The translations under genes were made by a program, and so were the position numbers. This document shows positions 45,039 through 62,589 of a stretch of DNA of 64,000 bases, in pieces; positions within the stretch are counted from its first letter, which is position 1; each line of letters begins with the position of its first letter. The notes beneath the pieces were generated by a model that ran no database searches, had not been told where the DNA came from, and saw only the letters and a program-made list of their open reading frames with translations. Source of the DNA: Blastochloris sulfoviridis (lineage in GTDB: Bacteria > Pseudomonadota > Alphaproteobacteria > Rhizobiales > Xanthobacteraceae); the NCBI RefSeq assembly GCF_008630065.1, contig NZ_VWPL01000006.1, positions 62,001 through 126,000 on the forward strand, written 5' to 3'.

Positions 45039-45050
45039 GGGGCGTCCTCC

Positions 45051-45154: not shown

Positions 45155-45260
45155 AGCATTTTATTCCGCAAACGTGGATACCGGTTTTGCGAAAGAAAAT
45201 GCGACAAACCAGAAACGTAGAGCGTCCGATCCGGTGCAGTCAGATCGGATAGCGCTCTAG
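45150..45260. repeat. Interspersed intergenic repeat, copy 2
   Basis: Bounded by the inverted ends TCTAGAGC and GCGCTCTAG, with inner motifs GTGGATACCGGTTTTGCG, GAAAATGCGAC and TAGAGCGTCCGAT. This layout is widespread as a dispersed intergenic repeat in Rhizobiales. It ends right at the flgK stop. Confidence 0.8.
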
Positions 45261-47005: not shown

Positions 47006-47020
47006 GACGGGGGCTCCGGG

Positions 47021-47521: not shown

Positions 47522-47540
47522 GGCACTCTCGCGGGTTGGA

Positions 47541-47834
47541 TCAGGTCCGCTTGCGGTTCATGTTCAGGGTCTGGGCGATTTGGCCATAGGCGGTGACGGC
47601 GGCCTTCTGGCGCACGGCGGCATCCAGCTGCGCCTTGATCGCCTCGCACTCCTCGCCCATGGCGCGGTAGACGTCGGCCAGCTCCGCCGCCAGCGACGCC
47701 ACGAGCTCGGCGCGGTAGGGCTGGCCTGTGGACGACGACGCGCCGATCCGCTGCGCCTCGGCGATAAGCCGCTTCGCCCGGCGCAGCAGAGGCTCGTCGT
47801 CAGACTGCGCGCTGGTTCGGCATCCCGGCAGCAT
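47541..47834 (-). CDS. Small flagellar-cluster protein of unknown function
   Basis: 97 residues from an ATG at 47834 with an excellent ribosome site (GAGGTGATCCG). It is a short, mostly helical protein (LLRRAKRLIAEAQRIGA and ELADVYRAMGEECEAIKAQLDAAV), without cysteine pairs, membrane helix or signal. It lies between flgE and the FlgN-like gene with minimal spacing, so it is surely co-transcribed. Size and helical character could suit a second export chaperone (FliT-like), but nothing in the sequence proves it. Confidence 0.6.
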   Translation of the reverse strand: MLPGCRTSAQSDDEPLLRRAKRLIAEAQRIGASSSTGQPYRAELVASLAAELADVYRAMGEECEAIKAQLDAAVRQKAAVTAYGQIAQTLNMNRKRT

Positions 47835-47838
47835 CGGA

Positions 47839-49092
47839 TCACCTCATCGCCGAAATCAGCGTGTCGTACATGGTGCTGACGGTGCTGATCACCTGCGCGG
47901 AGGCGGAATAGGCCTGCTGCGCCGAGATCATCACGCTGAACTCCTCGGAGGTGTCGGTCTTCGAGGCTTCGAGCGTCGAGCCATTGACCGTCCCGGCGCC
48001 GCCGCTGCCCGAGAGCTGCATGGTCGCCGAACCGGACGACCCGCTCTCGCGGTAGAGGCCGCCGCTTTCCGCCTGCAGGCCGTTGGCATTGGTGAAGGTG
48101 GCCACCGCGATCTGATAGATCGAGCGCACCGCGCCATTGCTGTAGGAGGCGTAGACGATACCGTCCTCGATCGAGATTCCGCTCAACGAGCCGTAGGACA
48201 GACCGTCCTTCTCGATTGTGCCGAGATCGACCTTGATGGTGCCGTCCACCGACTGCTGGGTGAGACCGCTGAAGCTGCCGGGATCGCCGAGATCCAGGCT
48301 GATCGCGCTGTTGGCGGCGCCTGTGGTCCAGCCGGTGATGGAGAGCGTGGTCGGCGCGGCCGAGGCGATCGAGCCGTCGCTGTTGAAGGTGATTGCGATC
48401 GGCGTTGCCATCGAGGTGCCGACCACCGTGGTGCCGTCCGACGACAGCACAGGGTCGGAGAAGGTCGCCTCCCAGGTGCCGATGCCGGTCTTCTCCCAGG
48501 TGATGGAGACCAGCGCCGAGGTGCCGAGCGAGTCGTAGATCTCCAGCGTGGTCTCGAACGTGTCGCCCACCGCCGCATTGGCCGGCAGGTTGGCGCTCAT
48601 CGACACCTCGGTGGTGGGCGCGGCGCAGCTGGTGATGACGTTGGTGTCGATGCTCTCGAGATTGCCGGCGGTGGGCGCGCCGATGACATTGCCGTCGGCA
48701 TCGGTGCGCCAGCCCATCAGAAAATAGCCGTTATTGACGAGATAGCCGTTGTTGTCCTTCGAGAACTCGCCGTTGCGGGTGTAGAACTTTTCGTTCGAGC
48801 CCGCCGTGCCGGTGACCGTGAGGAAGCCGTTGCCCTCGATCGCGAGGTCCGTGGTGCTGCTGGTGCGGGTGAGCTGGCCCTGGGCGCTGATATTGGAGCG
48901 CGTGTTGCTGAGCACGCCGCCGGACGAATAGGACGAGGACGAGGCGCCGGTGACCAGGCTTTCGAAGCTGGCGACGGTGGTCTTGTAGCCGTAGGTGCTG
49001 GAATTGGCGAGGTTGTCCGAGACGGTGGCGATCGCCGTGCTCTGGGCCTTGAGCGCGGAGACCGACGAATTGAGGGCGCCGGAGAGACTCAT
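47839..49092 (-). CDS. flgE: Flagellar hook protein FlgE
   Basis: 417 residues from the ATG at 49092. The N-terminal D0 segment is SLSGALNSSVSALKAQSTAIATVSDNLANSSTYGYK, with the hook-family ANS-x-T-x-GYK pattern. DLAIEGNGFLTVTG follows, and the C-terminal closing helix reads FSVMISAQQAYSASAQVISTVSTMYDTLI. Long Ser/Thr/Gly-rich beta domains lie between. It polymerises into the universal joint between basal body and filament; FlgD, encoded 13 bp upstream, is its cap. Confidence 0.92.
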   Translation of the reverse strand: MSLSGALNSSVSALKAQSTAIATVSDNLANSSTYGYKTTVASFESLVTGASSSSYSSGGVLSNTRSNISAQGQLTRTSSTTDLAIEGNGFLTVTGTAGSNEKFYTRNGEFSKDNNGYLVNNGYFLMGWRTDADGNVIGAPTAGNLESIDTNVITSCAAPTTEVSMSANLPANAAVGDTFETTLEIYDSLGTSALVSITWEKTGIGTWEATFSDPVLSSDGTTVVGTSMATPIAITFNSDGSIASAAPTTLSITGWTTGAANSAISLDLGDPGSFSGLTQQSVDGTIKVDLGTIEKDGLSYGSLSGISIEDGIVYASYSNGAVRSIYQIAVATFTNANGLQAESGGLYRESGSSGSATMQLSGSGGAGTVNGSTLEASKTDTSEEFSVMISAQQAYSASAQVISTVSTMYDTLISAMR

Positions 49093-49105
49093 GGAACACT
49101 GCTCC

Positions 49106-49765
49106 TCAGGACTTGATGGCGATGACGTTCGCGAAGGCGACCTCGGCATCGCCGATCTGCAGCATCACGGTGCCGCTTGAACTGTCGACGCCGGTGACGG
49201 TGCCGATCACGTTGGTCGTGGCGTCGATCGCATTGCCGGCGGCATCGGTGGCGGTGATGGAGATGGTGTAGGCGCCATCCGGCGCCGTGCTGCCGGACGT
49301 GGTCTTGCCGTTCCAGACGAAGCTGTGCTCGCCCGCCGCGGTCTCGCCGGTCGTGGTGTAGACGGTCTTGCCGCTCTCGTCGGTGATCTTGATGGCGACC
49401 TTGGAGGCGTCCGAGGCAAGCGTGTAGTTCCAGGTCGCCTGGCCGTCGGCCAGCGCGTTGGTCTTGCCGACGGCTTCCACGGTGTGGCCGACATAGCCCA
49501 CGGCGTTCGCCGCCAGCAGGCTCGCCAGCGCGGTGGTCACATTGCCGAGCTGCTCGTTGATCTGCGTCTGCTCGCCGAGGCTCGCATAGGACACGAGCTG
49601 GTTCATATACTCGTTCGGATCGGTCGGGCTCAGCGGGTTCTGGTTCTGGAGCTGCACGCACATCAGCGTGAGGAAGTCCGACATGTCCAGATCGGTCGAA
49701 CTGGAGCTGGCGCTCGTGCTCGACGTATAGGCTGACGACGATGAAATCGAAGAAACGGATGTCAT
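49106..49765 (-). CDS. flgD: Flagellar hook capping protein FlgD
   Basis: 219 residues from the ATG at 49765. A Ser-rich N-terminus leads to the FlgD signature MSDFLTLMCVQLQNQNPLSPTDPNEYMNQL and the segment SLGEQTQINEQLGN. The C-terminal half has the tudor/FnIII-type cap domain with GHTVEAVG, FVWNGKTTSGSTAPDGAYTISITATDAAGN. It forms the scaffold at the hook tip and is needed for FlgE assembly. A variant Cys replaces the usual Thr/Ala in the LTLMCVQLQ stretch. Confidence 0.9.
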   Translation of the reverse strand: MTSVSSISSSSAYTSSTSASSSSTDLDMSDFLTLMCVQLQNQNPLSPTDPNEYMNQLVSYASLGEQTQINEQLGNVTTALASLLAANAVGYVGHTVEAVGKTNALADGQATWNYTLASDASKVAIKITDESGKTVYTTTGETAAGEHSFVWNGKTTSGSTAPDGAYTISITATDAAGNAIDATTNVIGTVTGVDSSSGTVMLQIGDAEVAFANVIAIKS

Positions 49766-50158
49766 GACGAATCTCGACCAATGTCCCGCCGCCCGGCGCG
49801 GGCGGGCAGGATCGCTCTCGGCTTCTGCACGAATGGGACGATCTGGAGATTTAACGATGCTGCCCGAAATTCCGGGCGCACTTTCCGCACGGCAGGCGCG
49901 CGCGATGCGCAGGCGCGCAAGACAGAAGCGCGCCGACAAGACATGCGCGCGCTGTCGTCATCGCCGGGCTTGGTCCCAACTTTTGGTCATCGCCGGGCCT
50001 GGCCCGGCGATCTCGATGGGATTGTCACGATGCTGACGCGGACGGTGCCGGACCAACAGGCGGCCGGCGGGGCGATCACGGCATCGAGATGGCCGGGTCA
50101 AGCCCGGCCATGACGGCGTGGCGGCGGCGAGGGTCGGGCCAATCCGCCCGCCTTCGGG
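49766..50158. repeat. Intergenic region with REP-like palindromes
   Basis: 393 bp between fliS and flgD without a gene. It holds two GC-rich palindromes: ATCGCCGGGCC around 49989-50011, and ATGGCCGGGTC with its complement at 50089-50111. A half-copy (CATCGCCGGGCTTGG) lies about 30 bp before the first. Such elements can act as terminators for fliS or as REP sequences; a promoter for flgD should also be here. Confidence 0.6.
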
Positions 50159-50644
50159 TCAGGCCGCCGACGAGGCCGGCGTCTCGGTGCCGGCATTCGC
50201 GCTGGCGCTTGGGCGGGCAGCGAGCGGCGGAATCTTGGCGATCTGCGCCCAGGCGTCGCGCAACTCAGTCAGGCCTTCGGCCAGCTTCTGATAGCGGCGG
50301 ATGGCGTCGGGCTTGCCCATCGCCAGCAGCATCGCCATGATGTTGGCGTGGTAGGTCTTCTGCAGCCGTTCGGCCATCGCGCCGCCCTTGGCGACGTCGA
50401 TATGATGAGCGAGGCCGCGCAGGATCTGCGTCGAATGCGAGGTGAGATTGAACGCCTCTTCGAAGCGCTTCGCCTCGGTTGCGGCGATCGTGCGCTTGAG
50501 GTTGAGCAGCACGCGGTCGAGCGCCATGACGATGGCGGTGGTCGGCGCCACGGTGACGGCGGCGCTGCGATAGGCTGCCGAGACGGCGACGGCCGAGGGG
50601 GCCGATTGCTGTGCCTTGGCGTCAATCATTGCTGTTTGCAGCAT
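50159..50644 (-). CDS. fliS: Flagellar export chaperone FliS
   Basis: 161 residues from the ATG at 50644 (a later ATG at 50629 is possible); it overlaps the end of fliD by 23 bp. The FliS core is recognisable: AAYRSAAVTVAPTTAIVMALDRVLLNLKRTI, then a four-helix pattern with LTSHSTQILRGLAHHID and LQKTYHANIMAMLLAMG, and a disordered Pro/Ala tail. It binds the C-terminus of flagellin and prevents premature polymerisation in the cytoplasm. Gene order fliC-fliD-fliS is the classical one. Confidence 0.82.
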   Translation of the reverse strand: MLQTAMIDAKAQQSAPSAVAVSAAYRSAAVTVAPTTAIVMALDRVLLNLKRTIAATEAKRFEEAFNLTSHSTQILRGLAHHIDVAKGGAMAERLQKTYHANIMAMLLAMGKPDAIRRYQKLAEGLTELRDAWAQIAKIPPLAARPSASANAGTETPASSAA

Positions 50645-52298
50645 CAAGCATTGCCTTGAGATAAGCGAGGGTCGATTCGGCCTTGGCCATCGCGGCCTGA
50701 TATTTCGCGTATCGGGCGGTCAGGCGCTCGCGCAGAGCTTCTGCCCGATCCTCAATGGTCGCGACGTCCGACTCATAGTCGCTAATCTTTTCATTCAGGT
50801 TATCGACCACCGTCTGGATCGAGCCCGAGGAGGTGTCGCTCGCCTTGTTTGCGGCGTTATGGAGCCGGTCGGCTAGGCCGTAGCTCAACGTCACATTGAT
50901 CGATTCGGATGCGTTGCCGATGAAGACGAAGGTGAAGCCCTCATAGGCGGTGCCTGCAGCCCCAATGATGCTGTTGCCGCTGACCGTGAACAGCGAGTTG
51001 TCGCCACCGACTGAAGCCGAGATGATGGTGCCGGCACCGTCCGTGGTGATATCGAGTGTGAACGCAGTCGGCGCCGAGGTGCCGCGCCGCAGCACGGTCA
51101 GGTCGTCCGACGAAGAGGTGAATTGAAAGGTCAGAAGCGACTTGACCTTTTCCAGATTTTCCAGCAGCGCATCCTGCAGCTTGCCGCTGTCAAGTACGAG
51201 ATGGTTGGTGGCGTCGAAGCTGAAGCCGAGAAGCGCCATCGTATTCTGGTCGATCACGGTGTTGAGCGCATTCATCACATCGGAGTTGACCGAACGCAGC
51301 GTACTGTCGCCAAACAGCACGGCGCTGTCGGCAGCGCCGCCGGAGGCGCTCGTCGCCTGCTGGGCGATGACGAAATCGCGATAAGCATTGTAGGCGTCGA
51401 CCAGTTCCTGGACCGAGTCGGCAACCGAATTGAGGTCGGCCCCGACCTCCACCGTCACCGAGGTGTCCGTCGCCGTGGTGGCGTAGAGATAGAATGTCAC
51501 GCCATCGAGCGCGTCGCTGATCTCGTTCGAATCGCGGGTGATCTGCACGCCGTCGATCGTGAGGATGGCGTCCTTGGCCTGCTGCAGCACATTGGCGAAG
51601 GTGCCGGTACCGCTGGTGACGCCGAGGCCGTTCAGCACATCGTCGCCGGACACGGCCGTTGCCGTGATCTCCTTGCCGGTTTCGGTCGCGGTCAGCACCA
51701 GCTTGTAGGAGGAGTCGGACACCTTCAGCACCGTGGCCTTGACGCCGCTCTGGCTGGAGACGGTGTTGATCGCTGCGGCCAACTCGCTGAGATTCATCGT
51801 CGCGGTGACATCGATCTCGACGGCAGTGCCGCCATCGACGGCCAGGCTGAAGACGCCGTTGTAGCCGAGATCGGCGCTCTTGCTCGTCTGGGCACTGCTC
51901 GCCACCTTATGGGCGGTGGCAATCTGGGTTACCTCGATATCGTAGGTGCCAAGCTCGGTGCCACTATCAATGCTGACGCCCAGAACATCGCTGGTGTCGT
52001 AGCTGCCATCGGTCGACAGATAGGCGCTGCGATTGTTGAACACATCATCGGCCTTGGCGAGGTAGCCGGAAGGCGCGCTCAAGCCATAAGCGGCGGACGA
52101 GATGGACGAGAGCAGCGACTGCAATTCCTGATAGGCGGCGACCTTGGTCTCGGTCTTGGTGATCCGGGTCTCGATGCTGTCGGCGGCCGACAGCTTGGCC
52201 GCGACGGCGTCCTCGATCAGCGCGCTCCAGTCCGAGTTCAATGCCGAACTGGTGTAGCTCGTCGAGGTCGAGGAACCGGTGCCGGAGACGCTGGCCAT
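50622..52298 (-). CDS. fliD: Flagellar filament capping protein FliD (HAP2)
   Basis: 558 residues. N-terminal ALNSDWSALIEDAVAAKLSAADSIETRITKTETKVAAYQELQSLLSSI is a FliD_N coiled coil. The middle carries beta-rich domains (GTYDIEVTQIATAHKVAS, AILTIDGVQITRDSNEISDALDGVTFYL). The C-terminal FliD_C includes LVDAYNAYRDFVIAQQ, LGFSFDATNHLVLDSGKLQDALLENLEKVKSLL and the closing helix KISDYESDVATIEDRAEALRERLTARYAKYQAAM. It forms the cap on which flagellin folds. A separate flagellin terminator lies in front of it. Confidence 0.92.
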   Translation of the reverse strand: MASVSGTGSSTSTSYTSSALNSDWSALIEDAVAAKLSAADSIETRITKTETKVAAYQELQSLLSSISSAAYGLSAPSGYLAKADDVFNNRSAYLSTDGSYDTSDVLGVSIDSGTELGTYDIEVTQIATAHKVASSAQTSKSADLGYNGVFSLAVDGGTAVEIDVTATMNLSELAAAINTVSSQSGVKATVLKVSDSSYKLVLTATETGKEITATAVSGDDVLNGLGVTSGTGTFANVLQQAKDAILTIDGVQITRDSNEISDALDGVTFYLYATTATDTSVTVEVGADLNSVADSVQELVDAYNAYRDFVIAQQATSASGGAADSAVLFGDSTLRSVNSDVMNALNTVIDQNTMALLGFSFDATNHLVLDSGKLQDALLENLEKVKSLLTFQFTSSSDDLTVLRRGTSAPTAFTLDITTDGAGTIISASVGGDNSLFTVSGNSIIGAAGTAYEGFTFVFIGNASESINVTLSYGLADRLHNAANKASDTSSGSIQTVVDNLNEKISDYESDVATIEDRAEALRERLTARYAKYQAAMAKAESTLAYLKAMLDAANSND

Positions 52299-52321
52299 GG
52301 CGAGTCATCCATTTTGGAGAA

Positions 52322-52348
52322 ACGGCGGCGGGCCGGGCCCGCCGCCGT
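52322..52348 (-). terminator. Strong hairpin terminator between flagellin and fliD
   Basis: Perfect 13-bp arms ACGGCGGCGGGCC and the complement centre on 52335, followed on the minus strand by TTTCTCC. It lies 12 bp past the flagellin stop. It probably ends most flagellin transcripts, giving more flagellin than FliD and FliS. Confidence 0.65.
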
Positions 52349-52360
52349 CCGGGAGCGTGA

Positions 52361-53176
52361 TCAGCCGAGCAGCTTCAGCAGCGCCTGCGGCATGGAGTTC
52401 GCCGACGCCGCGGCGGCAACGGCCGCCTGCACCTTCACCTCGGACGACGACAGCTTGGCCTGCTCGGCCGCGATGTCGACGTCGGCGATCGCCGAACTGG
52501 CCGCATCGAGGTTTTCGATCGACGTCGCAATCGTTTCGCTCTGGAAGTCGAACCGGGACTGCAGGGCACCGATATTGGCACGCGCGGCCGACACGGTGCT
52601 GATCGCGGTGGTCACGCCGGCAATCGCGGTTTCGGCAGCGGCCTGGGTCGTGGCACCGGCCGCGGCGACGCCGAGGGCGGCAGCGTCAATATCGGTGAAC
52701 GACAGCTCGATCACATCGGCCGCATCCGAGCCGACGAACACGTCGGCGGCGGTGAAGGAGCCAGTGAGCAGCGACTGGCCGTTGTAGCGGGTGCCGGTCG
52801 CGACCGAGCCGATTTCGAGCACCAGCGCGTCGTACTCCGCCCCGATATAGGCACGCTCCGTGTCGGTGACGGTGGCCGAGGCCGACTGCGTGACCAGCGC
52901 CTTCATGCGCATCAGGATGTCGGAGATGCGGGCCGCGCCGCCGTCGGCGGTCTGCAGCATCGACATGGCGTGCGAGGCGTTGGTGGCCGCCTGCTCGAGC
53001 GCCACGACGTCCGAGTTGATGCGGGTCGAGATGGCGAGGCCGGCGGCGTCGTCCGACGCCTTGGTGATACGCGACCCGGACGCGATCTTCGACAGCGAGC
53101 TCGACTGGTCGGCCGCGTTGACGTTCAGGTAGCGGACGGCCGAGTTGGCGGCGGTGTTGGTCGAAATAACGGGCAT
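52361..53176 (-). CDS. fliC: Flagellin
   Basis: 271 residues from the ATG at 53176 (MPVISTNTAANSAVRYLN), with AGAAAGG about ten bases upstream. N-terminal D0/D1: SLSKIASGSRITKASDDAAGLAIS, the flagellin hallmark. C-terminal D1/D0: ARANIGALQSRFDFQSETIATSIENL with AIADVDIAAEQAKLSSSEV and a terminal LLKLLG. The variable centre is only about 70 residues long, so D2/D3 domains are missing or minimal, as in many alphaproteobacterial flagellins. A small hairpin (CCGGC-TTCT-GCCGG) lies in the 5' leader near 53207-53220. The gene is followed by a strong terminator. Confidence 0.94.
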   Translation of the reverse strand: MPVISTNTAANSAVRYLNVNAADQSSSLSKIASGSRITKASDDAAGLAISTRINSDVVALEQAATNASHAMSMLQTADGGAARISDILMRMKALVTQSASATVTDTERAYIGAEYDALVLEIGSVATGTRYNGQSLLTGSFTAADVFVGSDAADVIELSFTDIDAAALGVAAAGATTQAAAETAIAGVTTAISTVSAARANIGALQSRFDFQSETIATSIENLDAASSAIADVDIAAEQAKLSSSEVKVQAAVAAAASANSMPQALLKLLG

Positions 53177-53323
53177 TGGTGTCAACCTTTCTGTTGAACG
53201 AGGCCTCCGGCTTCTGCCGGCGGCGGCGACGCGATCGGGTCTGTGTCCCGGTGGCGTCTACAGGTTCAACGAAAGCCCGCCCCCCAAACTGGCGGACCGG
53301 ACCGCGGCCATGCTTGCGCGTGG

Positions 53324-54055
53324 TTAGTCCGCGGTTAATGACTGGCGGATCGAGCGCTCCTGGCTGCGCAACAGCTTGCGAAGCTGCTGGCGGCCGCGCT
53401 TGAGCAGCGATTCCACCGCCGACACCGTGGTCTGCATCACCTCGGCGATCTCGGCGTTGGACAGGTTCTCGTGGTAGGAGAGGATCAGCACCACCCGCTG
53501 GTGGTCGGGCAGCTGGCCCATGGCGCCTTCGAGCGCATTCACCACCTCGGTGCGGTGGAGCTGGCTCTCGGCGCCCGGCGCGCCGTCCGGCACTTCCGGC
53601 GCGGTCTCCAGATCCTGGTTGCGCGGCTGGCGGCGCAGGTCGATGCAGCGGTTGGTCACCACCCGGTAGAGCCAGGTCGAGAACTTGGCCCGGCCGCCCT
53701 CCCAGCGGCCGCGATGGGTCCACACCTTCAGCAGCACATCCTGCACCACGTCCTCGGCGTCGGCCGGATTGTCGAGGATGCGCAGCGCCAGCGCGTAGGC
53801 GCGGTCGATGTGGCGGCGCACCAGCAGCGCGAACGCCGTCTCGTCGCTCTCGCCGATGCGCTGCAGAAGCTCGTCGTCGCTGGCGGCGCTTGAGGCCGCC
53901 GGACTGGCGGGACGCCGCGCCGCGCCAGGAGCGTCAGGCTGCAGCGCCGCAGCGCCCGGCTGAAGCGTCGCAGCGTCCGGCTGAAGCGTCGCAACGTCCG
54001 GCTGGAGCGTCGCAACGTCCGCGACCGGCGCCGTCAAGACCGATGCGTTCGCCAT
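53324..54055 (-). CDS. ECF-type RNA polymerase sigma factor
   Basis: 243 residues from the ATG at 54055 with a perfect GGAGG site. Residues 14-41 hold four heptads of the form VATLQPD, a low-complexity N-terminus not part of the sigma fold. Region 2 runs from about residue 62: DETAFALLVRRHIDRAYALALRILDNPADAEDVVQDVLLKVW with STWLYRVVTNRCIDLRRQ. Region 4 is near the C-terminus: LPDHQRVVLILSYHENLSNAEIAEVMQTTVSAVESLLKRGRQQLRKLL. Region 3 is absent, as in group IV sigma factors. No anti-sigma gene is adjacent; the next gene downstream is flagellin, 147 bp away, so control of motility genes is possible but unproven. Confidence 0.9.
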   Translation of the reverse strand: MANASVLTAPVADVATLQPDVATLQPDAATLQPGAAALQPDAPGAARRPASPAASSAASDDELLQRIGESDETAFALLVRRHIDRAYALALRILDNPADAEDVVQDVLLKVWTHRGRWEGGRAKFSTWLYRVVTNRCIDLRRQPRNQDLETAPEVPDGAPGAESQLHRTEVVNALEGAMGQLPDHQRVVLILSYHENLSNAEIAEVMQTTVSAVESLLKRGRQQLRKLLRSQERSIRQSLTAD

Positions 54056-54598
54056 CACCAACCTCCACGCCGACGCGGCCTCGTCCGTTCAACGTACAAT
54101 ATTTGGACTATCTTCAAGGTGAATTCAAGCGTATTGACGCGCGGACTCGCAAATTTATTGGCGTTCGCTAGGCATTTCCTTCCCATTTGTTGTAGGAAAT
54201 TTTTGCCTACTTGTACATTTGAAGTAATTATAAATGAATTGACTGCGATCCGAGCAGCCGGCCGCAGCCCGGCCGCGACACCTCCGGCCCGCATCGCGAT
54301 CGAGACGCGCGCCTTGGCCGGCCTCACCCGCCGTCCCCGGACGTAGACCGACGGCGACTTGGTTGGGACTTCCGGCGACTTGGTTGGGGCTTGATTGCGA
54401 CTTGGCGGCGACCTCGGACGCGGTCGCCGGCCATCTGACGCCAATCAGACGGAACATCGCAGCGCCATAATCATATCCGCCTTATCTCGATATAGTTGTA
54501 TATTTCGCTATAAGGTTACAATTGCCGCCCACGCTGCCGCAAAATATTCATAATGTATTAACCATAATATTTCGAATTTTATTGTTTTCTTTAACCAG
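54056..54598. other. Intergenic region upstream of the sigma factor
   Basis: About 540 bp without a convincing gene. Two AT-rich patches lie at roughly 54095-54240 and 54470-54600. Between them 54352-54414 holds three tandem 21-bp units of the type GGCGACTTGGTTGGG, the third degenerate. The promoter of the sigma factor should be in the first AT-rich patch. Confidence 0.5.
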
Positions 54599-54658: not shown

Positions 54659-55780
54659 TTGGCAAAGCACGAGACATCGTCGGCACATGCGATCGCACCG
54701 GCCGGTCTTGCATCGGTCGGTCTTGCATCGGGCGCACACGCGCCGAGCGGGCCCGCTTCGGGACCACACGCCCCGGGGCACGTTTCAGGTGGCCATGCGT
54801 TGGGCGGGCATGTCTCTGGCGGGCATGGTTCCAACTCGCATGGTTCGAACTCGCATGGGCCGCACGCGCATTCCAGCGGCGCTCACATGCCGTCCGGGCA
54901 TGCCGGGGGCGGCTGGGCGCCGGCGCGCGCGCCGGCCGGCGGCCTGCCGGGCGCCGGGGTTGCGCGCCGCCCGGGCGAACTGGAGGCGACCCGCCCGCAC
55001 CTGAAGGCGCCCGGCAAGGGTGGCGCCAAGCGCGAGCAATTGCACCAGCGGCCGGCGCCCGAGAAGATCCTGCAGGCGTTCAACACCTGGTCGTTCAAGC
55101 GGGAGCAGCCGGACAATAAGCCGGCGATCCTGAACCTGATCGGCGATCTCGTGCACCACGATCTGCCGATCCAGTTCCTGATGTACTGGGGCAAGGGTCC
55201 GCGGCATTCGCTGGCGAAGCCGGACACCGCCTGCCTCGATCATCTGAAGGATCTCACGCGGCGCGTCGACGAGGTCTACCGGCATGGCGCGACGTTCCGG
55301 CTGATCTTCACCGACACGCATGCCGAGCTGAACGGCTACGCCAAGGACGCCTGCGAGCGCTATTTCCAGGCCGTGGCGGCGGCGGCGGCGGCGCGCGGCT
55401 TCGACGCCTGCCGGCTGAGCCATCTGATGGCGGCGGTCGGCATGGTCGAGTGCGACGGCGACCTCGACGAGGCGGTGCCCGAGGACACGCTGGAGAAGCT
55501 GCGCGTCTGTGCCGAGAAATGGTACCACGGCGAAGGCGGCGCCGCCGACGGCGCCGAGAAATACTACCGCATGAACATGCGCGAGAAGCGGGTGGTCGAG
55601 CTCGCCTTCCCGCGCGCCATCTTCACCACCTTCAATGGCAGCCAGTTCCGCAGCCTGTTCCCGGACCGGCTGCCGGTGTTCTACATGTATTCGCTGCGGC
55701 GCGGCGTCAGCATCAAGCCGTGGTTCATCCCAGCCGACGCCCCCCTCCCCGACGCGCCGCCGGCCGAGCCGGCATCCTGA
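54659..55780 (+). CDS. Uncharacterised protein, remote resemblance to isocyanide synthases (PvcA/Dit1)
   Basis: 373 residues from a TTG at 54659; the frame is open back to a TTG at 54599, and no ATG occurs before the middle of the His-rich region. Residues 20-80 are rich in His, Gly and Ser (GGHVSGGHGSNSHGSNSHG) and could bind metal. The folded part starts near EKILQAFNTWSFKRE. Its central block LPIQFLMYWGKGP, then RVDEVYRHGATFRLIFTDTH, RYFQAVAAAAAARGFD and the later AFPRAIFTTFNGSQF and GVSIKPWF follow the order and spacing of PvcA-type enzymes as I know them: P-I, a VY-x2-GA segment, an acidic D-x-H, a Y-x2-A helix, and a final PW. PvcA makes an isonitrile from tyrosine or tryptophan. The resemblance is by eye only. 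A DMT transporter gene follows 15 bp downstream. Confidence 0.5.
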   Translation: MAKHETSSAHAIAPAGLASVGLASGAHAPSGPASGPHAPGHVSGGHALGGHVSGGHGSNSHGSNSHGPHAHSSGAHMPSGHAGGGWAPARAPAGGLPGAGVARRPGELEATRPHLKAPGKGGAKREQLHQRPAPEKILQAFNTWSFKREQPDNKPAILNLIGDLVHHDLPIQFLMYWGKGPRHSLAKPDTACLDHLKDLTRRVDEVYRHGATFRLIFTDTHAELNGYAKDACERYFQAVAAAAAARGFDACRLSHLMAAVGMVECDGDLDEAVPEDTLEKLRVCAEKWYHGEGGAADGAEKYYRMNMREKRVVELAFPRAIFTTFNGSQFRSLFPDRLPVFYMYSLRRGVSIKPWFIPADAPLPDAPPAEPAS

Positions 55781-55795
55781 CCCGCGGGCCCGGCG

Positions 55796-56860
55796 ATGAC
55801 CGACACCGTCCGGCCGCACGTGCGGCATTCGCCCGCGCCCTCCCCCGCCATGACCCCTCGGGAGCGGAGCGCCCTGGGATATGCCGAGCGCCGCACCGCC
55901 GTCGTTCCCCCGGCAGCAGCCGGGCTGAGGGCGGCCCGCCCCGCGGCCGCGCCGCGGCCGGAGCCGGCGCGCGCGCCGGCCAGGATGCTGCGCGTCGACA
56001 ATGTGCCGCGCGGCATTCTCTACATGATCGCGGCGACGATGTTCTTCGCGGTGTCGCACGCCATCAGCAAGTGGCTGGTGGCCACCTATCCGGTCGGCGA
56101 GGTGATGTTCCTCCGCTCGCTGTCGTCGCTTCTCGTCACCGCGGCGCTGGTCCTGCCTTTCACCGGGCTGGCGGTATTCGATACGCCGCGGCCGGGCGCG
56201 CACCTAGCGCGCGGCTTCTCCCAGGCCTGCTCGCAGACCTTCGCGGTCATCGCCTTCAGCATGATGCCGCTGGCCGGCGCCATCGCCATCAATTTCTCGG
56301 CGCCGCTGTGGGCGGCGCTGCTGTCGGTGTTCTGGCTGAAGGAGCGGGCGGGGCCGGCGCGCTGGGCGGCGCTGCTCACCGGCTTCAGCGGCGTGGTCAT
56401 CGTCGCCAATCCCGGCGCCGATGCGCTGCAGATCGGCGCGCTGTTCGCGCTGGCCAATGCGGTGATGTATGGCAGCGTCACGGTGGCGGTGCGCGGCATG
56501 TCGGCCACCGAGTCCGCCAACACGCTGATGATGTGGCAGCTGATGACGGTTGCGGCCTGCCACGCCGCGCTGCTGCCGTTCGGGCTGGTCACGCCGACGC
56601 CGCAGGACGCGCTGCTGCTCTTCCTCACCGGGGCGGCCAATTCGGGGGCGCAATACACCTGGACCAAGGCGCTGTCGCTGGCGCCGACCGCCGCCGTCTC
56701 GCCCTTCTACTACCTGCTCTTGGTGTGGGCGATGGGCGTCGGCTTCCTGGTGTGGGGCGACGTGCCGACGCTCGGCCTCGTCGCCGGCTCGGCGGTGGTG
56801 GTGGGCTCCGGCCTGTTCCTGCTGTGGCACGAGACGCGGCGCCACAAGGAAAAGAACTAG
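55796..56860 (+). CDS. DMT/EamA family transporter
   Basis: 354 residues. After a hydrophilic, Pro/Ala/Arg-rich N-terminus of about 70 residues there are ten membrane helices in two EamA repeats: GILYMIAATMFFAVSHAISKWLVATYPVGEVMFLRS opens the first, and ALFALANAVMYGSVTVAVRGMS opens the second. FSAPLWAALLSVFWLKER is the conserved DMT helix 4 segment. A start at 55985 would remove the hydrophilic tail but has no ribosome site. Members export metabolites or amino acids. It follows the isocyanide-synthase-like gene by 15 bp and is probably co-transcribed, making export of that product a reasonable guess. Confidence 0.87.
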   Translation: MTDTVRPHVRHSPAPSPAMTPRERSALGYAERRTAVVPPAAAGLRAARPAAAPRPEPARAPARMLRVDNVPRGILYMIAATMFFAVSHAISKWLVATYPVGEVMFLRSLSSLLVTAALVLPFTGLAVFDTPRPGAHLARGFSQACSQTFAVIAFSMMPLAGAIAINFSAPLWAALLSVFWLKERAGPARWAALLTGFSGVVIVANPGADALQIGALFALANAVMYGSVTVAVRGMSATESANTLMMWQLMTVAACHAALLPFGLVTPTPQDALLLFLTGAANSGAQYTWTKALSLAPTAAVSPFYYLLLVWAMGVGFLVWGDVPTLGLVAGSAVVVGSGLFLLWHETRRHKEKN

Positions 56861-56869
56861 CGGTTGGGG

Positions 56870-57694
56870 TCAGTCGATCCCCTCTCCGCCGCCGAGCGGC
56901 CCCGGCGCCAGTGCTGCCATGTCGAAGGCGTCGACGTCGCGCAGAAGCGCGATGAAGGCGCGCGCCCCGTGATCCGCGGCGGCGCGGCCCTTCTCCGCCG
57001 TCGCGGCGGCGGCGTTGCCGACCACACCCGCGGCGTTGAGATCCTGCGCCATCCAGCCGAAGCCGACCGGGCTCGTCGCCCGCAGCCGGGCGAAGCGCGT
57101 CTCCATGCCCTCGGCGTGCGAGGCGAAGTCTTGCGCCAGCTCCATGCGCACCAGATCGGGCCGGAAGGCCAGCATCAGCGAGGTCTCGATCTCGCCGCCA
57201 TGGATGCCGAAGCGCACCTCATGTGCTCCGAACAGCCCCTCGGGATAGCCGAGCTTGTGCCAGGAGCAGGTGACGGCGAACACGCCGTGGCGCGCCCGCA
57301 GATCGCGCGCCAGCATGTCGGCGGCGGCGACATTGCCGCCATGGCTGGTGGCGATGACCAGCTTGCGCAAGCCGGCGCGGTGAAGTGCCGTGCCGATGGC
57401 CTGCCAGCCGGCCATCGCGGTGGCCGCCTCCAGGCTCAGCGTGCCGGGAAAGGCGAGATGCTCGGGCGAGATGCCGATGGCCTGCACCGGCAGCAGCACC
57501 GCCGGCAGGTCGTCCGGCAGAAGCTCGGCCACCCGCGCCAGATAGCCTTCGGCGATGACGGTGTCGGTGCCGAGCGGCAGGTGCGGCCCGTGCTGCTCGA
57601 CCGCGGCAAGCGGCAGCACCGCGATCCAGCGCGCGGTGTCGCCGCCCGCGATCTCGGGCCATGTCAGATGCGTCCACCACCGCCTGGGCGGCAT
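56870..57694 (-). CDS. Creatininase family amidohydrolase
   Basis: 274 residues from the ATG at 57694, with GAGGAG upstream. Metal ligands of the family are visible: the E-x-H pair and Asp in AVEQHGPHLPLGTDTVIAEGY, the His of IATSHGGNVAAADML, and the Glu of HGGEIETSLML. These enzymes open cyclic amides (creatinine) or act on related amides and formamides such as FAPy precursors and mycofactocin peptides; the substrate here is unknown. It converges with the DMT transporter with only 9 bp between the stop codons. Confidence 0.88.
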   Translation of the reverse strand: MPPRRWWTHLTWPEIAGGDTARWIAVLPLAAVEQHGPHLPLGTDTVIAEGYLARVAELLPDDLPAVLLPVQAIGISPEHLAFPGTLSLEAATAMAGWQAIGTALHRAGLRKLVIATSHGGNVAAADMLARDLRARHGVFAVTCSWHKLGYPEGLFGAHEVRFGIHGGEIETSLMLAFRPDLVRMELAQDFASHAEGMETRFARLRATSPVGFGWMAQDLNAAGVVGNAAAATAEKGRAAADHGARAFIALLRDVDAFDMAALAPGPLGGGEGID

Positions 57695-57707
57695 GACCCT
57701 GCTCCTC

Positions 57708-57812
57708 TTGAGCATCTTTCGTAAAAGCTTGTACCGGTTCGGCGCAAGAAAATGCGATCCGTCAGAAACCTGCAGCGCCAATCTGCGGCTGGCAGACCGG
57801 ATTGCGCTCCAG
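57708..57812. repeat. Interspersed intergenic repeat, copy 3
   Basis: Same family as the pair next to flgK: begins GAGCATCTTTCG, then TGTACCGGTTCGGCGCAAGAAAATGCG, and ends GATTGCGCTCCAG. It is more diverged than copies 1 and 2. It lies just upstream of the creatininase-family start. Confidence 0.7.
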
Positions 57813-57946
57813 GACTCGCCTTTTTCCTTCGCCGACATACAGATTTCACGAAGACACGGAAACTATCCGGTGGGCAGGCTGTACGGAATGCCTGCAAGAA
57901 TTGACCTTGCCGGCGATGCCGGCAAAGATTCGGCGGGAGCTGGGCG

Positions 57947-58480
57947 ATGAAGGACGGCGGCGCCAAGGACGTCTACAGCAAGACAGTCGGCTACCGGCTC
58001 AATCACACGGCCCGGCTGCAGCGGGCGCGCGCCGCCCGCCTGCTGGCCGGTCTCGGCCTGTTTCCCGGCCAGGAGACGGTGCTGAAGCTGCTGGCCGAGG
58101 GCGACGGCCGCACCATGGGCGATCTCGCCGGCGCGCTGCGGGTGCGCCCGCCCACCGCCTCCAAGACCATCGCCCGGCTCGCCGTGCAGGGCCTCGTCGA
58201 GCGCCGGGCCTCGAACGGCGACGGCCGGCTGGTGCGCGTCCACCTCACCGAGACCGGGCGCGCGCGCGCCGACGCCATCGACGGCATCTGGCACGCCCTC
58301 GAACAGGAGATGGTCGAGGGGCTGGACGGCAAGGACAAGAAGCGCCTGCGCAAGCTCTTGCGCCGGATCGAGAAGAACCTCGCCGCCCGGCTCGGCACCG
58401 AGCCGCACGAGGACGACGCCGAGGACGCCGAGGACGAGCCGGTATCCCCGACGATCAAGCCGGCGGTGGCATCAGAATAG
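57947..58480 (+). CDS. MarR family transcriptional regulator
   Basis: 177 residues. A winged helix-turn-helix fills residues 45-120: GLFPGQETVLKLLAEGDGRTMGDLAGALRVRPPTASKTIARLAVQGLVERRASNGDGRLVRVHLTETG contains the recognition helix (PPTASKTIARL) and the wing (SNGDGRLVRV). C-terminal dimerisation helices are rich in charged residues and end in an acidic tail. Ligand and targets are unknown. It overlaps the 3' end of the convergent chromate transporter gene by 9 bp, and its promoter region contains part of the copy-3 repeat. Confidence 0.88.
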   Translation: MKDGGAKDVYSKTVGYRLNHTARLQRARAARLLAGLGLFPGQETVLKLLAEGDGRTMGDLAGALRVRPPTASKTIARLAVQGLVERRASNGDGRLVRVHLTETGRARADAIDGIWHALEQEMVEGLDGKDKKRLRKLLRRIEKNLAARLGTEPHEDDAEDAEDEPVSPTIKPAVASE

Positions 58481-59770
58481 GCTCGCCAGCACGCCGAGCC
58501 CGGCCATGATCGCCACCGTGGCGATGAGCCCGCGCTTGGCCACGAACACCAGCCCCATCGCGATGGCGGCGAGCGCGGCCGCCCGCGCATCGAAGCTTGC
58601 CGGATCCGGCACCAAGAGCCGGACCGGGCCGAGCTGGACGGTCCCGACCGTCGCGAACAGCGTATGCAGCGCGAACCAGGCCGCGAGGTGCGCCATCACC
58701 CCCACCACCGCCGCGGTGATGCCCCGGAGCGCCGCCGCCAGCCGGCGGTTGGCCTGCAGCGTCTCCAGCCACGGCGCGCCGGCGAAGATCCACAGGAAGG
58801 ACGGCGCGAATGTCACCCAGGTGGTGACGGCGGCGCCGAGCAGGCCGGCAGCGAGCGGCGCGAACGGCGCGGGCGCCCGGTAGGCGCCGAGGAAGCCCGC
58901 GAACTGCGTCACCAGGATCAGCGGCCCCGGCGTGGTCTCGGCAAGGCCGAGCCCGGCCAGCATGTCGGCAGGGTCCGCCCAGCCGCGTCCCACCGCCTGC
59001 TCGGCGAGATAGGCGAGGATGGCGTAGGCGCCGCCGAACGTCACCACCGCCAGCTTGGCGAAGAACGCCCCGATCTCGAACAGCACGTGGCCCGCACCGA
59101 GCGTCGCGGCGATCAGGCCGAGCGGCGCAAGCCACAGCAGCGCGGCGATGGCGGCCGGCCACAGGCCCGCGCCCGCGGGCCGCACCGCGGCTGGCGGCGC
59201 CTCGGGCACGGCGGCGAACAGCAGGGCGCCGGCCAGAGCCGCGGCGGCCACCACCAGCGGAAACGGCAGCGCGAACAGCCCCACCGCCAGCAGGGCGGCC
59301 AGGGCCACCGCCTGCGCCGGCCGCGGCTTCAGCACGCGGCGCGAGACGCGGATCAGCGCCTCCAGCACGATCGCCAGCACCGCCGCCTTGATGCCGAAGA
59401 ACAGCCCGCCGACGAGGGGGGCCCCGGCGAACAGCACATAGGCGATGCTCAGCGCCAGCATCACCAGCGCACCCGGCAGCACGAACAGCCCGCCGGCAAT
59501 GACCCCGCCCCGCCAGCCCTTGAGCCGCCAGCCGATATAGGTGGCGAGCTGCTGGGCCTCGGGGCCGGGCAGCAGCATGCAGAAGTTCAGCGCCCGCAGG
59601 AACTGGCCCTCGTCCAGCCATCCCCGCTCCTCGACCGCCACGCGATGCATCAGTGCGATCTGCGCCGCCGGCCCACCGAAGGACAGGAGTCCGATGGCGA
59701 GGAAGGCGCGCGTCAGGCCGGCGAGGGTCGGAGCAAGGGTCGGAGGAAGGGTCGGGGGCGGCTCGCTCAT
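58472..59770 (-). CDS. chrA: Chromate transporter ChrA
   Basis: 432 residues, the long two-domain CHR type. The N-terminal half has FLAIGLLSFGGPAAQIALMH and FLRALNFCMLLPGPEAQQLATYIGW, with the signature PGPEAQQLAT. The C-terminal half repeats the fold with AFFAKLAVVTFGGAYAILAYLAEQ and LAETTPGPLILVTQFAGFLGAY. About ten membrane helices in total. It exports chromate, reducing its toxicity; some members may move sulfate-like anions. The usual companion ChrB regulator is absent, and a MarR gene is convergent instead. Confidence 0.92.
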   Translation of the reverse strand: MSEPPPTLPPTLAPTLAGLTRAFLAIGLLSFGGPAAQIALMHRVAVEERGWLDEGQFLRALNFCMLLPGPEAQQLATYIGWRLKGWRGGVIAGGLFVLPGALVMLALSIAYVLFAGAPLVGGLFFGIKAAVLAIVLEALIRVSRRVLKPRPAQAVALAALLAVGLFALPFPLVVAAAALAGALLFAAVPEAPPAAVRPAGAGLWPAAIAALLWLAPLGLIAATLGAGHVLFEIGAFFAKLAVVTFGGAYAILAYLAEQAVGRGWADPADMLAGLGLAETTPGPLILVTQFAGFLGAYRAPAPFAPLAAGLLGAAVTTWVTFAPSFLWIFAGAPWLETLQANRRLAAALRGITAAVVGVMAHLAAWFALHTLFATVGTVQLGPVRLLVPDPASFDARAAALAAIAMGLVFVAKRGLIATVAIMAGLGVLASLF

Positions 59771-59871: not shown

Positions 59872-62589
59872 CTACCCGCCAGCCGCCTTCGACAGGCCCC
59901 ACTTCTCGATGATGCCGGCGATCTCGTCGGCCGGCACGGCACCGGAGAACAGGAAGCCCTGCGCCTCGTCGCAGCCCAGCGCCGCCAGGAATTCGCACTG
60001 ATAGTCGGACTCGACGCCCTCGGCGGTGGTGGTCATGCCGAGCGCGCGGGCGATCGAGACCACCGCCTGCACGATGACCACGCGGTCGGTGCCGTGCACC
60101 AGATCGGTGACGAAGGAGCGGTCGATCTTGACCTTGTCAAAGGGGAAGGTCCGCAGATAGCTCAAGGACGAATAGCCGGTGCCGAAATCGTCCATGGCGA
60201 TGCGCACGCCGAGATTTTTCAGCCGCCGCAGGGTGGCGATGGTGTTCTCATTGTCCTCGAGCACGATCTGCTCGGTGATCTCGATCTCCAGGCGGCAGGG
60301 CGCGAGCCCGGTCTCGGCCAGCAGATGCTCGATCCGCTCGCCGAGATCGGGGGCGAGAAGCTGCACCGGCGACAGGTTGACCGCGATCTTGAGATTGCCG
60401 GGCCAGCGGGCGGCCTCGCGGCAGGCGGCGTCCAGCGCCCATTCGCCGATCGGCATGATCAGCCCGGTATCCTCGGCGACCGGGATGAACAGGCCCGGCG
60501 GAATGAGGCCCTTGACCGGGTGGCGCCAGCGGGCCAGCGCCTCGAAGCCGGCCACGCAGTCATCCCGCAGATCGATGATCGGCTGGTAGTGCAGCTCCAG
60601 CTCGCCGCGCTCGATGGCGGTGCGCAGATCGGTCTCGATCTCGCGCCGGTCGTTGAGCTCGGTGCTCATGGCGTGGCTGTAGAAGCGGAACGTGCCGCGG
60701 CTGTCGGCCTTCACCGAATAGAGCGCGAGATCGGCGGCCACCAGCAGGTCGTCGACATTGCGCCCGTCGGCGGGGCCCATGGCGATGCCGATGCTGGCGC
60801 CGGTGCGCACCTTGTAGCCGTCGACGTCGAAGGGCGGGGCGATGCAGTCGAGCAGGCGGCGCGCCAGGTCGCCGATCTCGGCGCGCGAGCCGGCCATCGG
60901 CACCAGGATCGAGAATTCGTCGCCGCCAAGCCGCGCCAGCAGCACGCCGGGTTCGACCGCCTGCTTCAGCCGGTTGCCGACCCGCCGCAGCAGCAGGTCG
61001 CCGATGCGATGGCCGAGCGTGTCGTTGATCACCTTGAAGCGGTCGAGATCGAGGAACAGCACGGCGAAGCCCGGCGCCTCGGGATCGTCGCACTGCGCGG
61101 CGTAGGCGCTGCAGATCTCCTCCAGCCGCGCGCGGAAGATGCGGCGGTTGGGCAGATCGGTCAGCGGGTCTTCCGAGGCGAGGCGCGCCACGTGGGTTTC
61201 CGCCTCGCGCCGCTTGGTGATGTCGGTGAAGGTCTGGACGAGGCCGCCGTCCGGCAGCGGCGCACTGCGGATCTCGATGACCGTGCCGTTGGCCATCAGC
61301 CGCTCGGAGATCGCGCAATGGGGGGCGGGGCTCCAGGGCTGGCTGCCCTCGAGCGGATTCAGGCTGGCGTGCTCGCCCGCGTGCTGCAGCGCGCTGTTGC
61401 GGGCCTGATAGGCCATCAGCTCGTCGAAGCGCGGCGGCGTCTCGATGAATTTCGGCGGCAGGTCCAGCAGCTCGCCGCACTTGGCGTTGATGATCGGGAT
61501 CTCGAGATCCTTGGTGATCAGCATGATGCCCTGGCTCATGTTCTCCAGGGTCAGGTGCAACTGCTCGGCCTTCTGGCGGGCCTTGGCCTCGGCCTGCAGG
61601 ATGTTCTTGACGGCGATGAGGATCAGCACCGTCAGCACGAAGCCGACGATGGCGTTCAGCCGGAGATTGGCGGCCGAGCCGGCATAGACGGCGCGCAGAT
61701 CGGTGCTGACGCTCATCCACAAGGGCTGGCCGCGGACATGGCGGAAGGTGACGAGGCGCCGGTTGCCGGAGGCGGAATCGGTCTCCTCGAAGGTGACCAT
61801 CCCGGCGCTGCGGGCGATCGACACGAACCGGGTGCCGTTCAGATCCTCGCCGAGCGCAAACCCGCCGGCGCTGCCGCCGGCCGAGCGCACGATGCCGTCA
61901 TTGCCCACCAGCGCGATCGACACCGAGGAGGCAAAGTCGATCTTGTTGTAGAAATTGGTCAGGTGCTCCGGCTTCAGCGAGGCGACGACCACCCCGCCGA
62001 ACGAGCCGTCGCTGTTGAGAAACCGCCGCGTGAACTGCACGGACCATTGCCGGCTGACGCGGCCGACGACCGGCTTGCTGACGAACAGCCGGTCCTCACC
62101 GCTGCTGAGGTGGACGCGGTAGTGCTCGCGGTCGCTGAGGTCGAGCGGCGCCGCGGGCTGCGGGCCGGCGTTCGAGGCGCGCATGATGCCGCTGGCATCG
62201 ATGATCGCCACCTGGACGATGATCTCGCTCAGGACGTCGGTGGTGCTGACGATGGTGTGGAAATCGGTGGTGTCCTTGCGGGTCTCGATGGTGCGGCGAA
62301 GATAGAGGAGCGCCTTGTCGATCTCGCCGATCGAGCGCAGCACGTTCTCCTCGAACACCATCGAGAAGTTCTCGTTGGTGCGGACGGCTTCGCGCAGATC
62401 GCTGCGCAAATCGTCGGAATATTTCAGGAAGATGCCGACCCACAGCATGACGATGAGCGCCAAGCCGAAAATGGCCGAGCTCCGCCACTTGCCCAAGCGT
62501 TTAGACAAGCGCTTGGCAAAAAGGCGGGGAAATTGAGCAAGGTGCCGTCTCATCAGCGAATGCCGTGTCACGCTCCCATCAGGCAGCAC
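59872..62589 (-). CDS. Membrane-bound GGDEF-EAL cyclic-di-GMP enzyme with Cache and PAS sensors
   Basis: 905 residues from a GTG at 62589 with AGAGGTGG upstream (an ATG at 62553 lacks a ribosome site). A first membrane helix (residues 37-56) and a second (about 310-335) flank a periplasmic dCache-type sensor. A PAS domain (LENMSQGIMLITKDLEIPIINAKC) precedes the GGDEF domain, which carries FLDLDRFKVINDTLGH and an intact active site LARLGGDEFSIL. The EAL domain has GFEALARWRHP and the later DDFGTGYSSLSYLRTFPFDKVKID, with all usual acidic ligands. It could both make and degrade cyclic di-GMP. Nearby polysaccharide and flagellar genes are typical outputs of that signal, but no direct link is shown. 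Confidence 0.93.
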   Translation of the reverse strand: MLPDGSVTRHSLMRRHLAQFPRLFAKRLSKRLGKWRSSAIFGLALIVMLWVGIFLKYSDDLRSDLREAVRTNENFSMVFEENVLRSIGEIDKALLYLRRTIETRKDTTDFHTIVSTTDVLSEIIVQVAIIDASGIMRASNAGPQPAAPLDLSDREHYRVHLSSGEDRLFVSKPVVGRVSRQWSVQFTRRFLNSDGSFGGVVVASLKPEHLTNFYNKIDFASSVSIALVGNDGIVRSAGGSAGGFALGEDLNGTRFVSIARSAGMVTFEETDSASGNRRLVTFRHVRGQPLWMSVSTDLRAVYAGSAANLRLNAIVGFVLTVLILIAVKNILQAEAKARQKAEQLHLTLENMSQGIMLITKDLEIPIINAKCGELLDLPPKFIETPPRFDELMAYQARNSALQHAGEHASLNPLEGSQPWSPAPHCAISERLMANGTVIEIRSAPLPDGGLVQTFTDITKRREAETHVARLASEDPLTDLPNRRIFRARLEEICSAYAAQCDDPEAPGFAVLFLDLDRFKVINDTLGHRIGDLLLRRVGNRLKQAVEPGVLLARLGGDEFSILVPMAGSRAEIGDLARRLLDCIAPPFDVDGYKVRTGASIGIAMGPADGRNVDDLLVAADLALYSVKADSRGTFRFYSHAMSTELNDRREIETDLRTAIERGELELHYQPIIDLRDDCVAGFEALARWRHPVKGLIPPGLFIPVAEDTGLIMPIGEWALDAACREAARWPGNLKIAVNLSPVQLLAPDLGERIEHLLAETGLAPCRLEIEITEQIVLEDNENTIATLRRLKNLGVRIAMDDFGTGYSSLSYLRTFPFDKVKIDRSFVTDLVHGTDRVVIVQAVVSIARALGMTTTAEGVESDYQCEFLAALGCDEAQGFLFSGAVPADEIAGIIEKWGLSKAAGG

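Follow-up and report, generated by a model that had tools for sequence, protein, structure and literature searches.

The closest described systems are the isonitrile synthases of the PF05141 family, PvcA (PDB 3e59) and PIsnA (9dh4, 9dhm), which act on L-Tyr or L-Trp and have a fold in common with the core of the protein described below; the defining reaction of such enzymes yields an isonitrile from an amino acid plus ribulose-5-phosphate. An oxygenase of the PvcB/IsnB type is commonly, but not universally, encoded beside an isonitrile synthase; no paper under the name PIsnA was found in the literature searched. Yeast Dit1, a further PF05141 relative that takes part in the spore wall pathway together with the P450 Dit2, is described in an excerpted account as resembling isocyanide synthases without being one: PvcA does not substitute for it and formyl tyrosine is its most likely product, so members of the PvcA superfamily need not produce isonitriles (PMC7345447). 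In the pvc operon of Pseudomonas aeruginosa, an enzyme of the PvcA type yields a small product that affects attachment genes. According to excerpts of the report, this product, the PvcA-pathway isonitrile paerucumarin, raised cup and roc expression when added externally to a pvcA mutant, and the authors suggest that it may be a molecular signal that sensor kinases perceive (PMC3639982). The pvc pathway comprises four genes and is proposed to act via PtxR/Roc, unlike the locus reported here, and the term 'c-di-GMP' is absent from the main text of the same paper (PMC3639982).

In this work we analyzed a locus within a 64 kb stretch of bacterial DNA (hereafter the window) that is centered on a gene for a synthase-like protein, called X, followed by a transporter gene and, further downstream, by a gene of c-di-GMP metabolism (Table 1). 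X represents a separate family related to isonitrile synthases, as judged from profiles, fold and residues. The family is apparently undescribed: no description was found in the literature searched, which includes a minority of subscription journals. The X gene is present in a single copy in the 3.85 Mb genome that holds the window, and the pair of open reading frames for X and the transporter is arranged as the initial annotation had it. An in-frame ATG at residue 77 is a possible alternative start of X.

Table 1. Coordinates of the main features of the X locus within the window
Feature	Position	Strand	Remarks
TTAA-rich promoter element (putative)	54557..54598	+	ATTAACCATAATATT at 54557-54571; TTAACCAG at 54591-54598
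X, PvcA/Dit1-superfamily synthase-like protein	54659..55780	+	373 aa, TTG start
X N-terminal stretch before FNTW, His/Gly/Ser-rich, genus-specific	54659..55078	+	16 His in 140 aa
X conserved core, basis of alignments and structure models	54974..55780	+	
DMT-family (EamA) inner-membrane transporter, proposed exporter	55796..56860	+	ATG start, 354 aa, 15 bp after X
CACHE-PAS-GGDEF-EAL protein, proposed periplasmic sensor	59872..62589	-	Pfam domains, dCache_1 below its cut-off

The likeness of X to PvcA/Dit1 isocyanide synthases, originally proposed from sequence elements alone, was assessed by profile and structure comparison. The elements themselves are present in X (the LPIQF strand, VYRHGA, TDTHA, the YFQAVA helix and KPWF), and the motifs of its core are FNTWxFKREQP, YWGKGPR, TDTHAxLNG, KWYxG, TFNGS, FYMYS and KPWF. 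PF05141 is the only Pfam family matched by X at E up to 1 (0.0018 for the full length, 9.4e-4 for the core), with 18.3 and 19.2 bits, respectively, which do not reach the curated cut-off of 26.4. Of the 38 X-family members, 26 are matched by this model within an E of 1, the best at 1.1e-4 (inferred to be about 22 bits), and the NCBIfam PvcA model matches two of the 38 (best 0.0036). A PF05141 search of the whole genome that holds the window gave no match, but neither did 14 control genomes, so that this search carries no weight as evidence of absence. Isonitrile synthases are rare: of 299 genomes sampled across the window's phylum, 3 have a PF05141 match above the cut-off. Since X alone gave only a spurious match (0.34) against the PDB, a family profile was needed; its top three PDB matches are isonitrile-synthase sequences, all weak (E 0.027-0.072), and hhalign of the X family against six true PvcA proteins gave a match at 95% (2e-8, 103 columns). 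The proposed membership in PF05141 thus falls below the Pfam cut-off, while the relationship emerges at the profile-profile level.

Structure prediction points to the same superfamily. The AlphaFold model of X reached a pLDDT of 78.9 with 10 sequences, and 87.7 with a pTM of 0.83 with 38 sequences. Foldseek placed PvcA 3e59 (1.1e-8) ahead of the first tyrosyl-tRNA synthetase (TyrRS; 3.3e-5), and overlay of the model on PvcA 3e59_B gave Z 19.1 with 226 of 268 model residues aligned at 3.6 A (VIA), so that the PvcA fold spans nearly the whole X core. PIsnA 9dhm and 9dh4 follow at Z 18.0 and 17.6 (VIA), and the catalytic core of class I TyrRS is the next fold, clearly lower (Z 14.8 and below, VIA). 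No TyrRS family appears among the Pfam or NCBIfam matches of the X family at E up to 1, a range in which the HMMER filters remove most matches above 0.1. Taken together, the weak PDB profile matches, the hhalign result and the model matches ahead of TyrRS settle the predicted fold of X and its membership in the PvcA/Dit1 superfamily as far as computation can.

The homology in fold does not extend to most of the residues that are invariant in PvcA. X is 12-15% identical to PvcA and PIsnA and has a short C-terminus. Residues were mapped by hhalign against the six true PvcA proteins as a reference set for invariant positions, with PvcA numbered by the first sequence of alignment A5 and X by its core. 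Common to PvcA and X are K66/K74, G103/G105, D111/D114, Y129/Y130 and P276-W277/P249-W250. Changed from PvcA to X are S110/T113, G112/T115, R232/M200, S233/N201 and W236/E204, as well as R249/F217, S251/T219, H253/N221, T275/K248 and H278/F251, the mapping of the C-terminal positions being of low confidence. In terms of motifs, SDG becomes TDT, RS..W becomes MN..E, RLSIHPQ becomes FTTFNGS and TPWH becomes KPWF, so that of all four X keeps only the D and the PW, again with a low-confidence C-terminal mapping. In line with the earlier statement that key residues differ from classical members, H253, H278 and the RS..W triad are replaced. Across 38 X-family sequences, the two distant ones included, the invariant columns include R43, P46, W72, G73, T113-A117, N120, Y130, E204, F217, Y237 and K248-F251; K74, N201, T219 and N221 belong to the nearly invariant ones and M200 does not. 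Most of the mapped positions are thus constrained but occupied by other residues, which suggests a related family whose chemistry is probably altered relative to PvcA. Because many residues invariant in the six true PvcA proteins differ in X, PvcA chemistry is not to be assumed. The differing residues at matching positions show where the isonitrile-synthase fold has changed and offer a test of their role.

These substitutions bear directly on the explanation suggested initially, in which X is a true isonitrile synthase whose product, a small and possibly metal-binding isonitrile, is exported by the DMT protein, the c-di-GMP gene being a mere neighbor. The PvcA fold, the retained D, Y, K and PW positions and the pairing with a transporter are consistent with it, and an isonitrile is a possible product of X. 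However, H253, H278, R249 and the RS..W triad, all invariant in the six true PvcA proteins, are replaced, and X lacks the PvcB-like neighbor: as initially annotated, no such gene lies next to X, and tblastn with two PvcB-like queries (neighbors of true PvcA proteins, identified by position and by eye) gave no match at 1e-3, either in the window or at the 38 related loci. Given also the genus-specific His-rich tail and a co-occurrence of X with the sensor gene that is too tight for a bystander, we regard this explanation as unlikely.

The N-terminal tail was the sole pointer to a metallophore. Its last part (from about 54974) is counted within the alignment core. The His/Gly/Ser-rich composition noted initially is indeed present, but among 23 sequences counted for the stretch before FNTW it is limited to one genus: the same-genus relative (L017) has 13 His and the other 21 sequences have 0-5. 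The tail lends no support to the metallophore idea. Relative to L017, residues 1-105 of X are fast-evolving: over 92 codons they carry 25 nonsynonymous and 14 synonymous changes, versus 18 and 29, respectively, over the 268 codons of the core.

Relatives of X were collected in two steps, a first set of nine at 43-93% identity and a genome scan with 37 matches, eight of which coincide with contigs of the first set. The scan was alignment-derived and pattern-based, so the 37 loci are a lower bound; a single-sequence contig scan had given nine pattern matches and no relatives. By record titles, 35 of the 37 scan loci are alphaproteobacterial or possibly so (L055 is titled Proteobacteria only and L061 Alphaproteobacteria only; L043 is titled Rhodovulum and has a twin contig, G926, in the window's family). 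The hosts include Methylobacterium, Rhodoplanes, Bradyrhizobium, Lichenibacterium, Xanthobacteraceae, Hyphomicrobiaceae and metagenome-assembled genomes (MAGs) of Rhizobiales/Hyphomicrobiales. X occurs in 8 of 61 genomes sampled from the window's family (five genera) and is rare in broader samples, with 2 of 199 genomes of the order, 3 of 385 of the class and 3 of 398 of the phylum; the class matches include G329, which was discarded as spurious (19.7 bits, three internal stops). No relatives were found among plasmids and viral contigs.

Two distant relatives come from MAG records of Oligoflexus (L063) and Micrarchaeota (L064), in which X is fused to an AMP-ligase and to an asparagine synthetase, respectively. 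A carbamoyltransferase-like ORF lies near the L063 fusion, together with a putative carrier protein that falls just short of its cut-off (20.1 vs 20.8 bits). Both fusions fit a biosynthetic enzyme for amino or carboxylic acids, and neither has a transporter, sensor or pxpB-pxpC genes in its stretch.

The genomic neighborhood was surveyed in 39 loci (the window, L017 and L028-L064), of which 37, mostly from Hyphomicrobiales, are close relatives; these counts keep L061, a fragment that on visual inspection duplicates the C-terminus of L056 and was excluded from alignment A4. The EamA domain of the DMT protein in the window is well over the cut-off (1.6e-22, 80.7 bits vs 28.2). A DMT or TauE-type protein is encoded at 35 of the 37 close loci, which bears out the suggested pairing of synthase and exporter; the two without a visible transporter are L055, where the contig ends, and the fragment L061. 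At 30 loci, including L036 that is cut by a contig end, the DMT gene follows X on its strand, either immediately or with pxpBC in between, and in two Bradyrhizobium loci it lies ~3 kb upstream. In L057-L059 it is replaced by TauE (by Pfam in L057 and L059, by tblastn in L058), and this swap of unrelated transporters suggests that transport itself is needed. DMT relatives of at least 55% identity occur in 8 of 8 family genomes with X and 7 of 53 without it. The X gene pair is more than a chance arrangement; no paper in the literature searched links an isocyanide synthase with a DMT transporter. The DMT paralogs gave no clear lead as a hint to the substrate (11 loci, in genomes with and without X). 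Three of them (L128, L129 and L131) lie near a GST-like gene, as assigned by Pfam for L128 only.

The neighboring genes with a more limited distribution bear on what X might make. PxpB and PxpC are parts of the ATP-dependent 5-oxoprolinase. Proteins of these types (Pfam CT_C_D and CT_A_B) are encoded at 14 of the 37 loci, following X in the same direction at 12 and divergent at two, with only part of pxpC in L061. PxpBC was accordingly ruled out as an essential partner of X. A search of 10 genomes with X gave no PxpA in two (G042 and G956, the latter only 82% complete), both of which have pxpB in the cluster. In a second explanation X resembles Dit1 and, instead of producing an isonitrile, adds a formyl or other acyl group to the nitrogen of an amino acid, giving a stable product that is exported. 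The residue changes relative to PvcA favor it, as does the excerpted description of Dit1 as isocyanide-synthase-like, not replaced by PvcA and likely to yield formyl tyrosine (PMC7345447), and PxpB/PxpC-type proteins could act on an amide. On the other hand, their genes occur at 14 loci only and may serve ordinary recycling of 5-oxoproline. We consider this explanation improbable.

Between the DMT and sensor genes of the window lie three genes (creatininase, MarR and a chromate transporter), which recur only at the same-genus L017, except for a chrA match in L061. The creatininase gene is relevant to a third explanation, a nutrient or stress module in which X detoxifies or salvages an amino-acid derivative, the DMT protein exports the leftover and the CACHE domain senses a nutrient and not the product of X. 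CACHE domains are commonly nutrient sensors, and the pxpBC and creatininase families are known for lactam or amide hydrolysis, both of which would suit such a module. However, the creatininase gene is present at 2 of the 37 loci, both of the window's genus, and the AMP-ligase fusion, with a carbamoyltransferase and a putative carrier protein close by, suggests biosynthesis; the module is in our view rather improbable.

The third component is more constant than these genes, and nearly on a par with the transporter. The CACHE-GGDEF-EAL gene is present at 33 of the 37 close loci, L059 being counted on its GGDEF-EAL part alone as the contig ends; with this gene, and with pxpB-pxpC added at 14 loci, the 'two-gene unit' of the initial annotation proves too small. 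Three gene arrangements were observed: in most loci the sensor and DMT genes converge, in L031/L032 the sensor gene sits between DMT and X, and in L045/L055 it is upstream. It is absent from L046, which has X and DMT, within about 8 kb on each side, and from the 7 kb of L061; the contigs of L036 and L040 end before it could appear. In the window, the GGDEF (133 bits) and EAL (254 bits) domains are over the cut-off with both motifs intact, and dCache_1 scores 39.9 bits against a 45-bit cut-off, which the L057 relative passes with 45.6 bits. Two hydrophobic segments (37-55 and 313-331) are located on either side of the CACHE region. Given these segments and the intact GGDEF and EAL motifs, the protein should read something periplasmic.

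An ortholog of the sensor (at least 52% identity) was found in 8 of 8 family genomes with X versus 1 of 53 without it (Fisher 3e-9), where the genomes are not independent (the eight belong to five genera) and the threshold was chosen after a gap down to 38% was visible. The single exception is G953, whose sensor is 52% identical. At 1e-20, less similar counterparts of the sensor region are present in 28 of 61 family genomes, which indicates that the CACHE type itself is common. This co-occurrence has to be weighed against a fourth explanation, an inherited gene order with no functional link. Nearly all close loci seem to come from one taxonomic order, and the same-genus pairs L018/L019 and L021/L022 have further flanking genes in common. 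The flanking genes mostly change between genera, however, whereas X, DMT and the sensor remain: of the 17 genes called over the final 20 kb of the window, these are the three in common with loci of other genera (eight loci compared). The genes also stay linked despite rearrangement in L031/L032 and L045/L055, and TauE takes the place of DMT in three loci. We therefore find a merely inherited order very unlikely.

In the reading that we prefer, and to which we give about an even chance, the three conserved genes form a synthase-exporter-sensor loop. Cytoplasmic X would modify an amino acid or a similar small substrate, perhaps, like PvcA, together with a phosphorylated sugar, for which the surroundings of the shared K-S/G loop are a possible binding site. 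The product would be small, N-functionalised and probably amino-acid-derived, carrying an isonitrile, N-formyl or related group, and in some species might be processed further by PxpB-PxpC. After export by DMT (or TauE), a direction that is itself inferred, it would bind the putative periplasmic CACHE domain and, through the GGDEF/EAL output, change c-di-GMP. With regard to the product, this loop overlaps with the isonitrile-synthase and the Dit1-like explanations. By analogy, and as far as the excerpts of the report go, paerucumarin is a possible precedent for a PvcA-type product acting as a signal (PMC3639982). The near-constant transporter and c-di-GMP partner lead to a specific, testable proposal, namely that Methylobacterium, Bradyrhizobium, Rhodoplanes and their relatives export a small molecule linked to c-di-GMP control. 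No isocyanide synthase was named among the literature matches listed for these three genera, and for isocyanide synthase together with c-di-GMP the literature gave one table entry, naming an isocyanide synthase family protein.

A wider version of this proposal, which we offer as a tentative possibility, is a signaling system of Hyphomicrobiales in which a remodelled PvcA-fold synthase would make an amino-acid-derived autoinducer by a new isonitrile or formyl variant of the chemistry, with DMT/TauE export, a dedicated CACHE-GGDEF-EAL receptor and a shared TTAA-rich promoter element. The element upstream of X is conserved at the sequence level. In the 64 kb window, TTAACCAT has one occurrence, at 54558. 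TTAA-N7-TTAA sites with at most one mismatch precede X at 24 of 25 loci and 22 of 116 other gene starts, and TTAACCTTAA-type sites at 18 of 25 and 1 of 116, respectively, the control promoters being GC-richer (0.62 vs 0.505) and the 25-locus set omitting 10 of 35 loci (nine Methylobacterium, one Bradyrhizobium). When all 35 loci that have upstream DNA are counted, 34 carry the N7 site and 19 the TTAACCTTAA type; the upstream regions were anchored at an in-frame stop codon, a choice that can favor TAA. The N7 site was also seen in 57 of 415 AT-rich windows and 5 of 15 ORF-free control windows. The TTAA elements resemble the consensus of CtrA sites; other TTAA spacings (N2, N6) are frequent too, and the assignment to CtrA was dropped in favor of a conserved TTAA-rich element only. 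N7 sites are also found upstream of the sensor gene, at 16 of 31 loci.

Flanking the PvcA/Dit1-superfamily synthase-like gene (X) and the gene for the EamA-family transporter (DMT) are the neighbours listed in the table. In the same-genus locus L017, ORFs resembling the flagellar and sigma-70-type factor region were recognized by eye, and the three genes between DMT and the CACHE-GGDEF-EAL protein (the proposed sensor) are found there too; one chrA match was also observed in the fragment L061.

Coordinates of neighbouring genes, fused ORFs and the sensor relative
Feature	Location	Strand
Flagellar cluster (FlgK, FlgE-like, FliD, two flagellin-type genes) and sigma-70-type factor gene, adjoining X	window 44121-53185 and 53324-54061	-
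Creatininase-family, MarR and chromate-transporter genes, between DMT and sensor	window 56870-59770	
AMP-binding ligase–X fusion	L063:6423-8702	
Asparagine synthetase–X fusion	L064:4143-6419	
Sensor relative	L124:9668-12295	

The clusters at L015 (genome G042) and L020 (G956) include pxpB, and the PxpBC proteins at these two loci may be other than an ordinary 5-oxoprolinase, because PxpA was looked for and not found in either G042 or G956, the latter 82% complete.

Two distant relatives carry the X domain within a single fused ORF. In an Oligoflexus MAG it is joined to an AMP-binding ligase. An ORF resembling carbamoyltransferases lies nearby, as do an aldehyde dehydrogenase and a possible carrier protein, and together with the fusion they form a candidate biosynthetic cluster. 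In a Micrarchaeota MAG the partner is an asparagine synthetase that includes the glutamine amidotransferase domain.

Relatives of the other two proteins occur in genomes without X. DMT paralogs at L128, L129 and L131 match at 51-54% over the full-length query, each near a gene judged GST-like on visual inspection, with a Pfam GST match behind that call at L128 alone. The sensor relative of G953, at L124, has 52% identity and is adjoined by a second GGDEF/EAL gene.
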